This document shows, piece after piece, positions 35,804-52,146 of a DNA stretch of 64,000 bases. The notes below the pieces were generated by a model. The model saw only the letters and a program-made list of their open reading frames with translations. It was not told where the DNA came from and ran no database searches. Position 1 is the stretch's first letter, and every line of letters starts with the position of its first letter. Where the stretch lies: positions 1 to 64,000 of the forward strand of contig JAJYUB010000009.1 in assembly GCA_021792795.1 (NCBI GenBank), read 5' to 3'. A program made the translations under genes and the position numbers. The DNA is from Acidobacteriota bacterium. GTDB lineage: Bacteria; Acidobacteriota; Terriglobia; Terriglobales; Acidobacteriaceae.

Positions 35804-36058
35804 ATGGATTTTCATCGACTCGTACACGAAATCGACTCGGAGATTTCGCGGCTGCAACAAGCTCGCGCATTGTTAACAGGGGAACCAACAAAGCGCGGCC
35901 CAGGCCGCCCGAAGGCGGCGATATCTCACAAGGCTGCGACGACCGGCAGCAAGCCGGCAAAACGCAAGCGTCGCCTCTCGCCGGAAGGCAGGAAACGTAT
36001 TGCCGACGCGATGCGGAAACGTTGGGCAGAGCGCAAGAAGCAGCAAGGCTCCAAGTAA
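35804..36058 (+). CDS. Small basic protein with AT-hook-like GRPK motif
   Basis: This encodes 84 residues from the ATG at 35804, with a perfect GGAGGT six bases upstream. The frame extends to 35765 but the ribosome site decides the start. The N-terminal 30 residues look like a coiled helix (HEIDSEISRLQQARALL). The middle KRGPGRPKA is an AT-hook-like minor-groove-binding motif. The C-terminus is Lys/Arg-rich (KPAKRKRRLSPEGRKRIADA, then MRKRWAERKKQ). It likely binds DNA as a small nucleoid-type protein. A strong terminator follows. Confidence 0.85.
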   Translation: MDFHRLVHEIDSEISRLQQARALLTGEPTKRGPGRPKAAISHKAATTGSKPAKRKRRLSPEGRKRIADAMRKRWAERKKQQGSK

Positions 36059-48243: not shown

Positions 48244-48888
48244 ATGGGTCTGATCGTTCGCTCCTCCGCAATCCACGCCGCCGGTTGTTATACCACCACC
48301 CCCATCGCGAAAGGTACTCGCGTCGTGGAATACACTGGCCCTGTAATTGATAAGGAAGAGGCCGACCGCCGATATGAGGACAAGCCGATCACCTATCTGT
48401 TCGGCATTGGCGACGGATCCAAGGTCATCGATGGCCATGGCATCGCCATGTTCATCAATCATTCCTGCGATGCGAACTGTGAGACCGAGGAAATCGACGG
48501 CCGCGTATGGATCATGGCCATCCGCGACATCGCCGCAGGCGAGGAGCTTTGCTACGACTACTGCCTGTACGACGGCGGCGACGAAGACGCCCCTTGCAAC
48601 TGTGGCGCGAAGAAGTGTCGCGGATCGATGTATTCCGCCGAAGAGCTGCGAAGGCGCAAGCAGTTGGCGTTAAGACGGGCGAAGGAACAAGCAGCGGTCA
48701 AAAAGAAGAAGGTAAAACTCGCCGCGAACAAGAAGAAACGAGTGCAGTCTGGCTCATCGTCGAGGAATGCCGCGCAACCTGCGAAAACATCGGGAAGAAA
48801 GCCGTCGAAGGAGAAGACTTCGCAATCTTCCCAGAGACGAAAACCCGCCGGTACCGGCAAGACTGCCAAAAAGGCCCGCCGGAAGTAA
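48244..48888 (+). CDS. SET-domain lysine methyltransferase with histone-like tail
   Basis: From the ATG at 48244 this encodes 214 residues. The SET fold occupies about 1-115, with GCYTTTPIAKGTRVVEYTGP, FINHSCDANC (about 70-79) and AGEELCYDYCLYD. A post-SET zinc cluster follows (CNCGAKKCRG, from Cys118). Residues 135-214 are a Lys/Arg/Ala/Ser tail (AVKKKKVKLAANKKKR, later KTAKKARRK) like histone H1 or bacterial Hc1. The SET domain transfers methyl from SAM to protein lysines. The tail should bind DNA or be its own substrate. The open frame to 48163 is not needed. Confidence 0.9.
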   Translation: MGLIVRSSAIHAAGCYTTTPIAKGTRVVEYTGPVIDKEEADRRYEDKPITYLFGIGDGSKVIDGHGIAMFINHSCDANCETEEIDGRVWIMAIRDIAAGEELCYDYCLYDGGDEDAPCNCGAKKCRGSMYSAEELRRRKQLALRRAKEQAAVKKKKVKLAANKKKRVQSGSSSRNAAQPAKTSGRKPSKEKTSQSSQRRKPAGTGKTAKKARRK

Positions 48889-49050: not shown

Positions 49051-51120
49051 ATGGCTTATCAGGTTTTAGCGCGCAAATACCGTCCCCAGCGCTTCGCAGA
49101 CGTCATCGGACAAGACCACGTCACGCACACGCTGTTGAATGCCCTGGCACAGGACAGGATCGCGCACGGCTACATCTTTAGCGGACATCGCGGCATCGGC
49201 AAAACCACTATCGCCCGCATCCTTGCCATGGCGCTGCAATGTCGAACGCATCAGGGGACGCCTGAGCGTCCGACGCCGGAGCCTTGCGGCTTGTGCGACG
49301 CCTGCACGGAGATTCGCGCTGGCAACGCCATGGACGTCATCGAGATTGACGCGGCCACCAATCGCGGCATCGACGAAATTCGCGAGCTGCGCGAAGGCGC
49401 CCGCTATAGCCCGGCGCGGGACCGATACAAGATCTACATCCTCGACGAAGCGCATCAGATTACGGATGCCGCGTTCAATGCGCTCCTAAAAACGCTGGAG
49501 GAGCCGCCGGCGCACGTCATTTTCATGATGGCGACCACGCAGCCGGAAGACATTCCCCAGACCATCCGTTCACGCAGCCAGCACTTCAGCTTTCATGCGG
49601 TCCGTTTTCAGGAAATTGTGGCGCAACTGCGCAGCATCGCGGAAAAGGAATCGGTCGGCGTCGATGAAGCGGCGTTGTCCCTGCTTGCCGAGGCCGGCGA
49701 CGGCTCGATGCGCGATGCGCTCTCCATCATGGACCAGGCGATTGCCAGCGCTCCGCTGGTCAATGGCGCGCACGCCCTGGGAGCGTCGCAGATCCGCTCC
49801 CTGATGGGGACCGTTTCGAATCAGGTGTTCGAGAACATGATGGATGCGGTGAAAGAACAGAACGCCGCCTCGATGCTGGAACTAGCGGCGCAACTGCTCG
49901 ACGCGGGAAACAGTCCGCAGCAAATTGCGCGGCAAATGGTGCGCTTCCTGCGCAATTGCCTGATGGCGCGGCTGGCAGGAACAAATTCTGATCTGCTACA
50001 GGTTTCCGACGAAGAGAGAGCGCGCGCGGAGCGGGTGGCAGATGTATTTTCCGAAGAGGATTTGACGCGCTTTTTGAACTCAATGTTGCGCACCTTCGAC
50101 GATCTCGGCTATCGGCAGGAGCAGCGGTTTCATCTTGAACTTGGATTGCTGAAGCTGGTCCACATGCAACGACTGCTGCCGTTGGAAGATTTGTTCCGCC
50201 AGCTTTCGCTTCCGCCGGGAGCAGATGGAAGTTCCAGCGCCGCGACGCCGCGATTGACGGGAACCAGCGCCGCGCCGAAACATCTGGAGCTTCCCCTGCC
50301 GCGGGCCAATGCTTCGTCCGCGACTGCACCGCTCACGGCCCGTTCGTCCGCGCGTGAGGAGTTCAAGCCACCGGTTTCGCCGCCGAGCGAAACCGCTGCA
50401 CCCGTAATTGCCGACAGCCATCCGCTCCAGGGAATGTTTGCCAGTTCTCCGGGCTCTTCGCCTGTCGCGCATGCGGTTGCCGCCTCCAGACCTGCGCCGG
50501 TTGCATCCGCGCCGATGCCGCAGCCGGCACAGGCCTCACCTCCTAGACAGGAAAAAGCGCCATCCGCGACGCCATCCGCGGTCGCTGCTGCTGCGACCGT
50601 CCCGGCGATCGCTCAGGCCGAACCGTCTCCAGTGGAAGCCGACATCTCCTCCGTTGAAACATTGCCTTCAGCAAGCCAACCCGAGCCCCCACAGGCAACC
50701 TCCGCGCCCGATGTAGAACCCTTGCACGCTGCGATGAGCCATGCGCTGGTCCGGGGAGGACATGAAACCGCCGGGTACCTGCTCGAAGCTGGAACCTGCG
50801 AATGGAGTGGCAACGAATTGCGGGTTCGCGTCGGTGCCTCCAAAACGCTGTTTGAGATGACGTATCCGTCACAGGCGCAACAGATTGTGCGGGAGGCCTT
50901 TCGGCAAATTGCCGGCCCAGGCCGCACGGTACGGTTGGAACCCGGCGATTCGTCGCCAGCCAATGGGAAAAAAACCAGGGCGAAAGCAATGCCTGTCCCA
51001 GTAACCGATGGCGAAACGCGCCCCCAGGACCATCCCCTGATTCGCCACGCACTGCAACTTTTTTCTGCGGAAGTTCGCAGCGTTGTTTCTCTACGCGATC
51101 CGCAAGCGCCGAAAACTTAA
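49051..51120 (+). CDS. dnaX: DNA polymerase III subunits gamma/tau
   Basis: This encodes 689 residues. The clamp-loader ATPase has YRPQRFADVIGQDHV, Walker A SGHRGIGKTTIARI, a zinc module ending CGLCDAC, Walker B IYILDEAHQ and sensor-type TTQPEDIPQTIRSRSQHF. Domain III continues to about residue 370. A long Ala/Pro/Ser linker (about 390-560) precedes the tau C-terminal domain (ELRVRVGASKTLFEMTYPSQ). It loads the sliding clamp and bridges polymerase and helicase. It heads the conserved dnaX-ybaB-recR cluster, with 15 bases to ybaB. Confidence 0.96.
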   Translation: MAYQVLARKYRPQRFADVIGQDHVTHTLLNALAQDRIAHGYIFSGHRGIGKTTIARILAMALQCRTHQGTPERPTPEPCGLCDACTEIRAGNAMDVIEIDAATNRGIDEIRELREGARYSPARDRYKIYILDEAHQITDAAFNALLKTLEEPPAHVIFMMATTQPEDIPQTIRSRSQHFSFHAVRFQEIVAQLRSIAEKESVGVDEAALSLLAEAGDGSMRDALSIMDQAIASAPLVNGAHALGASQIRSLMGTVSNQVFENMMDAVKEQNAASMLELAAQLLDAGNSPQQIARQMVRFLRNCLMARLAGTNSDLLQVSDEERARAERVADVFSEEDLTRFLNSMLRTFDDLGYRQEQRFHLELGLLKLVHMQRLLPLEDLFRQLSLPPGADGSSSAATPRLTGTSAAPKHLELPLPRANASSATAPLTARSSAREEFKPPVSPPSETAAPVIADSHPLQGMFASSPGSSPVAHAVAASRPAPVASAPMPQPAQASPPRQEKAPSATPSAVAAAATVPAIAQAEPSPVEADISSVETLPSASQPEPPQATSAPDVEPLHAAMSHALVRGGHETAGYLLEAGTCEWSGNELRVRVGASKTLFEMTYPSQAQQIVREAFRQIAGPGRTVRLEPGDSSPANGKKTRAKAMPVPVTDGETRPQDHPLIRHALQLFSAEVRSVVSLRDPQAPKT

Positions 51121-51135: not shown

Positions 51136-51474
51136 ATGGACATGGACAAAATTAAGGAAATGATGGGCCAGGCACAACAGATGCAGCAGCAGATGGAACA
51201 GACCATGGCCCAGATTCAGGTGGAAGGCTCAGCGGGCGGCGGCGCGATTACCGTGCGGATGAATGGCAAGAAGCAGGTGCTGGCGGTGCAGGTTGACCCA
51301 TCGGCAGCCGCGGTCGGCACCGGCCCTGGAGACAGTACGGCGGACTTGGAGATGCTGCAGGACTTGATTGCCGCAGCAGTCAACGATGCTGGGCGCCGGG
51401 TCGATGAAGCGCTGCAAGGAAAGCTTTCTGGAATGCTCGGGGGCATGGAGTGGATGCGGATGCTGGGCCACTAA
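51136..51474 (+). CDS. ybaB: YbaB/EbfC nucleoid-associated protein
   Basis: This encodes 112 residues, the usual size. It opens with a Met/Gln-rich helix (KEMMGQAQQMQQQMEQTMAQ), then GGGAITVRMNGKKQVLAVQV and DLIAAAVNDAGRRVDEALQG. The family forms dimers with a tweezer shape that bind DNA. GGAAGGG lies before the ATG. Its place between dnaX and recR is conserved across bacteria and confirms the assignment. Confidence 0.95.
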   Translation: MDMDKIKEMMGQAQQMQQQMEQTMAQIQVEGSAGGGAITVRMNGKKQVLAVQVDPSAAAVGTGPGDSTADLEMLQDLIAAAVNDAGRRVDEALQGKLSGMLGGMEWMRMLGH

Positions 51475-51546: not shown

Positions 51547-52146
51547 GTGTCACGCTTCGCGCAACCGCTCACCCAATTGATTGACGAATTGTCGAAACTG
51601 CCAGGAATTGGCAGAAAGTCGGCCCAACGGCTTGCGTTCCATATTCTGCGCGCGACGGAACAAGATGCTTTTGCGTTGGCTGACGCGATCCGGGACCTGA
51701 AAGCCCAGCTTCATTTGTGCTCGATCTGTCACAACATTACGGATGTCGATCCATGTCAGTTCTGCAGCAATCCGTCGCGGAATCAGGCCATTATTTGCGT
51801 TGTGGAAGAGCCATCGAACATCGCCAGTATCGAGAGGACCAAGCACTTCAACGGCGCCTACCATGTGTTGCATGGAACGCTATCGCCATTGAACGGAATT
51901 GGTCCGGACCAGCTTCGCATCGATAGCCTCGTGGAGCGTGTTCAAGCGGGGTCGCTGCAGGAGGTCATTCTGGCCACGAATCCCACCGTTGAAGGCGAGG
52001 CCACCGCCGGATATCTGCTGCAGTTGCTGCGCGGGACGCCTGTCCGTATTACCAGAATCGCCACCGGCATTCCGGCGGGGGCCGATATCGAATATGCGGA
52101 TGAAGTGACCATGACGCGGGCCATGGAAGGCCGCAGGGAACTCTGA
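51547..52146 (+). CDS. recR: Recombination mediator protein RecR
   Basis: This encodes 199 residues. The N-terminal helix-hairpin-helix is LSKLPGIGRKSAQRLAFHIL, the zinc finger is LCSICHNITDVDPCQFC, and the Toprim domain starts AIICVVEEPSNIASIERT, with LATNPTVEGEATAGYL following. It works with RecF and RecO to load RecA on gapped DNA. The GTG start at 51547 has AAGGA seven bases upstream. A hairpin ten bases after the stop probably ends the cluster. Confidence 0.96.
   Translation: MSRFAQPLTQLIDELSKLPGIGRKSAQRLAFHILRATEQDAFALADAIRDLKAQLHLCSICHNITDVDPCQFCSNPSRNQAIICVVEEPSNIASIERTKHFNGAYHVLHGTLSPLNGIGPDQLRIDSLVERVQAGSLQEVILATNPTVEGEATAGYLLQLLRGTPVRITRIATGIPAGADIEYADEVTMTRAMEGRREL

Follow-up and report, generated by a model that had tools for sequence, protein, structure and literature searches.

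A predicted SET lysine methyltransferase with a basic tail, often encoded near dnaX in Acidobacteriaceae

The SET gene and its product

The window analyzed here is a stretch of 64,000 nucleotides that encodes, at positions 48244 to 48888 of the forward strand, a protein of 214 amino acids (ATG at 48244, stop codon at 48886–48888). The features of this protein and of the genes discussed with it are listed below.

35804..36058, forward strand: P0002, an 84-aa GRPK protein proposed as a substrate, whose link to SET is not supported
47215 to about 48130, reverse strand: TPR neighbor
48244..48621, forward strand: SET domain and post-SET zinc cluster, residues 1–126 (Pfam SET, PDB and fold match)
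48466–48468, forward strand: cysteine C75 of the NHSC motif, invariant across all 53 sequences of the alignment
48595..48621, forward strand: post-SET CxCxxxxCR cysteines C118, C120 and C125, invariant in 53 of 53 sequences
48637..48750, forward strand: predicted basic helix, residues 132–169 (AlphaFold2, pLDDT blocks 88–97)
48751..48888, forward strand: Lys/Ser/Ala/Pro-rich stretch predicted to be disordered, residues 170–214 plus the stop codon (pLDDT 56–62)
49051..51120, forward strand: dnaX, DNA polymerase III gamma/tau (TIGR02397, 400 bits, cut-off 250)
51136..51474, forward strand: ybaB/ebfC, nucleoid-associated protein (TIGR00103, 64 bits, cut-off 49)
51547..52146, forward strand: recR (TIGR00615, 256 bits, cut-off 163)

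Residues 14 to 106 match the Pfam SET profile (E 8e-21), as do all 53 sequences of an alignment made up of the window protein and 52 relatives. In this alignment, G14, N72, H73, C75, E101, Y106, C118, C120, and C125 are invariant and Y104 is kept in at least 90% of sequences, and Y51 is invariant among 27 aligned sequences. The early Gly motif, NHSC, GEExxYDY, and the catalytic Tyr, which we take to be the SAM and catalytic motifs of SET enzymes, are intact and align with those of MLL1. Because these motif residues are invariant, the sequence appears to hold nothing against catalysis or against SAM binding, the failure of which the first-pass annotation had named as evidence against its reading.

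The closest PDB sequence is the SET domain of KMT2A/MLL1 (1.1e-21), which is the best PDB match by sequence and by structure alike. An AlphaFold2 model built on the 53-row alignment (mean pLDDT 86) compares with MLL1 at Z 16.0, with an rmsd of 1.5 over 129 residues and 41% identity, in Foldseek rows that span residues 1 to 130. Judged by domain and motifs, the window protein is predicted to be a eukaryote-like protein-lysine methyltransferase with a complete SET/post-SET domain, and the earlier description of its SET core and zinc cysteines as complete agrees with the profile match and the invariant cysteines. Its gene is single in the 4.04-Mb assembly, wherein no other match was found at E ≤0.001. 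The core carries a net charge of −9 (family median −8) and has dN/dS values of 0.013 to 0.066 in ten genus pairs, ratios by which it is under very strong purifying selection.

Inheritance and linkage to replication genes

The SET gene is present in all nine other genomes of the genus and in 18 of the 27 family genomes outside the genus, with one more carrying a fragment. In a draw from the order, 244 of 298 genomes match SET, a few of these matches being weak or partial, and all but two of the matching genomes (G037 and G042) belong to the same family, Acidobacteriaceae in the broad sense, the label that we use for the family-type group. The gene is dispensable, because 54 of the 298 genomes are without a match. 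A scan of the phylum gave some SET match in 94 of 297 genomes. A scan of named genomes gave at least 583 relatives, the best 80 of which comprise 55 family-type loci, with titles naming Acidobacteriaceae, Edaphobacter, Granulicella, Bryocella, Korobacter, and Sulfotelmatobacter, and 25 other loci, whose sources include Gemmatimonadetes, Burkholderiales, and Verrucomicrobia.

In a rapid tree built from 124 cores over 127 columns, rooted at the midpoint and with many forks left open, the family-type proteins lie on one side of a branch (100, starred) and the genus forms one clade (96, starred), a pattern that, as far as such a tree can indicate, fits vertical descent of SET within the family. 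We rejected a mobile origin for the gene on three counts. No phage record was found for the gene; all 46 plasmid SET records, 43 of them from Paraburkholderia, Caballeronia or Burkholderia, have less than 60% identity; and the SET proteins encoded by 30 IMG/VR viral contigs (L218–L247) are distant, with 26 to 54% identity over the matched part and the highest identities falling on very short matches. One record titled Verrucomicrobia (L105, CAJCIP010000059.1) has a SET gene that clusters with those of Bryocella and Granulicella and that is followed by dnaX, ybaB, and recR genes matching those of the window, and this record is therefore probably mislabelled or a mixed bin.

In the window, dnaX begins 162 bp downstream of SET on the same strand. 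Among the best 80 of the at least 583 relatives, the 55 family-type loci include 32 with dnaX, 25 with ybaB, and 23 with recR, always downstream of SET and on the same strand where found, and none of the three was found in the 25 loci outside the family. Within the same 55 loci, dnaX is absent from the examined flank in 23, and it is absent in 17 of the 49 loci that have 4.5 kb downstream or a match. Across 106 pooled loci, which include some genomes twice and many short flanks, dnaX follows SET in 59 cases, lies within 200 bp in 27, and is never on the opposite strand. The gap between the two genes is 37 to 55 bp in L088, L093, L102, and L105, which suggests that they are co-transcribed there. 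A promoter scan gave no promoter-like site, and a terminator scan gave one terminator-like site on the opposite strand, no more than in shuffles. The position of SET next to DNA-replication genes points to an intracellular role, probably on DNA-bound proteins.

This arrangement also bears on whether the protein might be a secreted nucleomodulin, delivered into protists or other eukaryotes, with the tail serving, as has been proposed for LegAS4 and BtSET, as a nuclear or nucleolar targeting signal. Such a function would be consistent with a weak NCBIfam likeness to AnkI/LegAS4 (E 2e-6, 26.8 bits, cut-off 550), with the nucleolar location of BtSET described in part of PMC3980110, and with VirB4-like genes at three loci of the genome. 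However, the grouping of the proteins of a soil family in a single clade and the linkage to dnaX-ybaB-recR argue against it, as do the searches for type III and VipB components. The sole FHIPEP protein, scanned over its 665 matched aa, matches FlhA best (770.5 bits, cut-off 772.1) and SctV less well (533.5 bits, cut-off 692.25); no SctV-type type III export protein was found in the 98%-complete assembly, nor was VipB found in the genome. We consider secretion of this kind very unlikely. The three VirB4-like loci themselves (L248–L252) may mean that at least one type IV system is present, which leaves room for export.

Composition and evolution of the basic tail

The 88 residues that follow the zinc cluster carry a net charge of +27 (K 22%, R 14%, A 15%, S/T 17%), and the final 80 contain 19 K and 12 R for a net charge of +29. 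The basic part thus begins directly after the cluster and covers 88 residues rather than the 80 first annotated. Enzyme and tail do share one chain as had been claimed, since both lie in the single 214-aa ORF. For a background we used 284 greedy ORFs of at least 100 aa taken from 336,575 bases of this genome (roughly one-twelfth of its assembly), with spurious ORFs included and the SET ORF itself dropped by an overlap rule. The maxima for the last 80 residues in this set were a net charge of +17 and 11 K, so none of the 284 reaches the charge of the tail, which is far outside the sampled background.

The predicted helix spanning residues 132 to 169 starts with a MYSxEExxRRK-like segment common to most of 27 aligned sequences, and few alignment rows cover its later part. 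The long form of the stretch from residue 170 to 214 is present in the genus. The first-pass annotation likened this tail to histone H1 or chlamydial Hc1. The likeness holds for the basic, Lys/Ala/Ser-rich composition, but kinship is not supported, because no linker-histone or Hc1 family was listed among the matches. The tail alone gave no PDB match at E ≤10, and the linker-histone, Hc1, and Hc2 families of Pfam gave none at E ≤1 for the window protein and none at E 0.01 across the 53 sequences, in searches where the HMMER bias filter could mask low-complexity likeness to histone families. Sub-threshold low-complexity Pfam matches of the window protein include DUF3019 (E 0.029), and three Hc1 matches in the genome stay below the cut-off (E 0.23–0.99). 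On the missing family and PDB matches, we ruled out the tail as a histone relative.

All ten genus members searched carry SET together with a basic tail, of 47 to 108 residues and a net charge of +18 to +31. The fusion is therefore kept in relatives; a tail peculiar to this strain is what the first-pass annotation had named as evidence against its reading. Tail length and sequence vary greatly within the genus, with a dN/dS of 0.30 to 0.79 in eight genus pairs and saturation in two of ten.

These values raise the question of a tolerated low-complexity extension without function, basic only through codon and repeat drift. We simulated drift with 300 runs per relative, each run to the measured tail identity (14–89%) and with an extant tail standing in for the ancestor. 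Charge per residue lies above 97.5% of neutral-drift runs in eight of nine genus relatives, which are not independent cases because they share descent, and drift begun from each of the nine relatives reaches the charge of the window tail in at most 0.7% of runs. The exception is L003, whose tail is 89% identical and has a run-on end, and which is not above the drift model; in a cruder drift run with guessed identities, L006 and L007 fell inside the range. The variability, the dN/dS values, and L003 are what a functionless tail would lead one to expect, whereas the charge kept beyond drift, the repeated appearance of long tails at this position in separate lineages, and the comparison with the 284 same-genome ORFs speak against it, and we regard this explanation as highly improbable. 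By these measures the tail sequence drifts while its charge is kept. In L003, the closest relative, the frame continues for 29 residues past the stop of the window gene and ends less basic, as though through a lost stop codon or a frameshift.

Beyond the genus, the tails of 95 distinct family-type proteins (105 minus 10 identical to others) have a median length of 34 and a median net charge of +8. The net charge is at least +5 in 87 of the 95; it is zero or less in three, and the tail is therefore not indispensable. Among 44 outside proteins, counted after 11 of 55 outside loci were excluded for giving no match to the post-SET pattern, 18 have a tail of net +5 or more. A tail of at least +17 needs nine changes on the tree, at least five of them forced by starred branches. 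Long tails occur in proteobacterial relatives, such as L130 (81 residues, +30) and L134 (51 residues, +17), and the Lys-rich proteobacterial tails look like convergent extension. Those of L130, L134, L118, and L122 are rich in Gly-Lys, Ala-Lys or Asp-Lys and follow the post-SET cluster. The charges of core and tail are uncorrelated (Spearman −0.08), and on this ground we set aside charge compensation between the two.

The tail might instead be mainly a regulatory substrate, wherein automethylated lysines tune activity as in chlamydial NUE and a nucleic-acid tether is secondary. The part of PMC2904774 cited here describes NUE automethylation at K209/K210 and reduced histone methylation by mutants at these positions, and the window tail directly follows the post-SET cluster of an acidic core. 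Against this, no tail lysine or short motif is fixed beyond the helix start among 27 sequences, and arginine often takes the place of lysine, which suggests that charge is what matters rather than a methyl site. We regard a mainly regulatory tail as possible, although somewhat unlikely.

Proposed function and known systems

The preferred reading, to which we give about even weight, is of an intracellular SET lysine methyltransferase that is tethered to nucleic acid by its tail, the lysines of which are probably automethylated. A lysine side chain and SAM would enter the usual SET pocket, and the acidic core would favor basic substrates. In known SET enzymes the post-SET cluster borders the substrate channel, and it is from this cluster that the basic extension is predicted to emerge. 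The tail would tether the enzyme electrostatically to DNA or RNA and keep it close to basic proteins bound to nucleic acid, and the tail's own lysines would probably be methylated in cis or in trans. The linkage to dnaX-ybaB-recR makes the nucleoid the likely place of action.

By analogy, the exit of the tail from the post-SET cluster, the acidic core, and the Lys-rich tails known from other bacteria would together favor the electrostatic tether. Lys-rich low-complexity regions of prokaryotes are associated with DNA and RNA binding in the part of PMC6821194 used here, and a section of PMC11229371 describes HupS as having a Lys-rich C-terminal domain, with DNA binding controlled by acetylation. 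Another reading of such a tail is that it docks on rRNA instead of DNA and that ribosomal or other translation proteins are methylated. Passages of PMC6821194 state that disordered poly-lysine peptides also bind RNA and that ribosomal proteins contain Lys-rich regions, but the conserved neighbors of SET are replication and recombination genes, and we judge a role in translation to be quite unlikely.

As a substrate for the nucleoid-tethered enzyme, the first-pass annotation proposed the product of 35804–36058, P0002, a suggestion that its occurrence in many genomes without SET does not sustain. Of the 61 genomes searched, 40 hold relatives of this protein, some alongside SET and some not, and many of these matches are weak. 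Among the 27 family genomes outside the genus, P0002 is present in 11 of 18 with SET versus 2 of 9 without (Fisher p 0.10; one of the nine has a SET fragment). In a sister family, 13 of 14 genomes gave weak matches to P0002, and only two of these 14 gave weak SET matches. P0002 and SET share a contig, about 9 to 12 kb apart, in the window and in G002, G003, G004, G007, G009, and G028, and other neighbors are also retained near SET, as 5 kb upstream in L061 and L062. P0002 as a SET partner is not supported, because its distribution is not tied to SET and its nearby position is shared by other neighbors. The protein is small, with GRPK and a LSPEGRKRIADAMRKRWAERK end; neither Pfam nor NCBIfam gave a match for it at E 1, and it represents a basic-protein family without a Pfam name. 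YbaB and the three HU proteins of the same genome would be at least as good candidates. The third HU-like protein (L213:409–798, reverse strand) ends Lys-rich, unlike the other two.

We infer the activity, the nucleic-acid tethering, the automethylation, and the substrate of the window enzyme. Lysine-methylated chromatin-like proteins, at which the first-pass annotation hinted, are possible in this lineage. An unlikely and tentative extension is an old, inherited Acidobacteriaceae system in which a nucleoid-tethered SET enzyme marks nucleoid and replication proteins (YbaB, an HU paralogue, DnaX) as well as its own tail. If true, a chromatin-type methylation mark would be used by a free-living bacterium on itself, for which chlamydial SET, with its disputed methylation of Hc1, offers the closest precedent. 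A strongly constrained, single-copy SET gene that is present in most genomes of a soil family, is linked to replication and recombination genes, and encodes a tail of conserved charge makes an internal role directly testable in culturable, non-pathogenic relatives. Searches of open-licence papers found nothing relevant that joins SET with Acidobacteria or with dnaX and recR, and nothing on Lys-rich tails in Acidobacteria.

Bacterial SET methyltransferases are a known kind of enzyme, and the window enzyme is set apart by its tail and its genomic linkage. The SET domains of KMT2/MLL and Set1 proteins (MLL1, PDB 7w67 and 7u5v) have the same SET/post-SET fold with the same catalytic and zinc residues. 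In KMT2/MLL proteins, the N-terminal n-SET/WIN region serves the WDR5-RbBP5-ASH2L complex. This region is absent from the window protein, which starts at the SET domain without an N-terminal extension, its residue 1 aligning with MLL1 residue 3829. Alignment to the chains of MLL1 ends at model residue 130, and the basic tail has no counterpart there.

The proteins titled bacterial “SET domain-containing protein-lysine N-methyltransferase,” from Paraburkholderia and others, are the same single-domain enzyme, and the plasmid SET records have 39.7 to 44.1% identity among the 15 matches listed of 46. Several chromosomal bacterial relatives have Lys-rich tails at the same place as that of the window protein. 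The Paraburkholderia-type tails differ in being of other, often Gly-Lys, composition and belong to a separate clade, and unlike in the window family, dnaX was found in 0 of the 25 loci outside that family among the best 80 of at least 583 relatives.

Reports on chlamydial SET proteins acting on Hc1 disagree. In work on cpnSET, Murata 2007 reportedly observed Hc1 methylation. A passage of PMC3980110 cites cpnSET as binding and methylating the H1-like Hc1, with a proposed internal role, and in the portion of PMC2904774 cited here, NUE did not methylate Hc1. According to that portion, NUE, also a bacterial SET protein, has a basic C-terminus and automethylates close to it (K209/K210), an event said there to support activity; NUE is type III-secreted and acts on host histones (PMC2904774). 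The window enzyme differs from NUE and cpnSET in its long basic tail, in the lack of a detected SctV-type protein, and in its linkage to dnaX. More generally, the part of PMC3980110 used here describes work on bacterial SET proteins as centered mainly on what they do to eukaryotic histones, records many SET genes in environmental bacteria, and argues for a bacterial origin. HupS/HupB and topoisomerase I, as described in parts of PMC11229371 and PMC6821194, are nucleoid proteins and a DNA enzyme that end in a Lys-rich C-terminal extension. In the window protein, by comparison, the carrier of the tail is a predicted lysine methyltransferase, and therefore the tail could also be a substrate.
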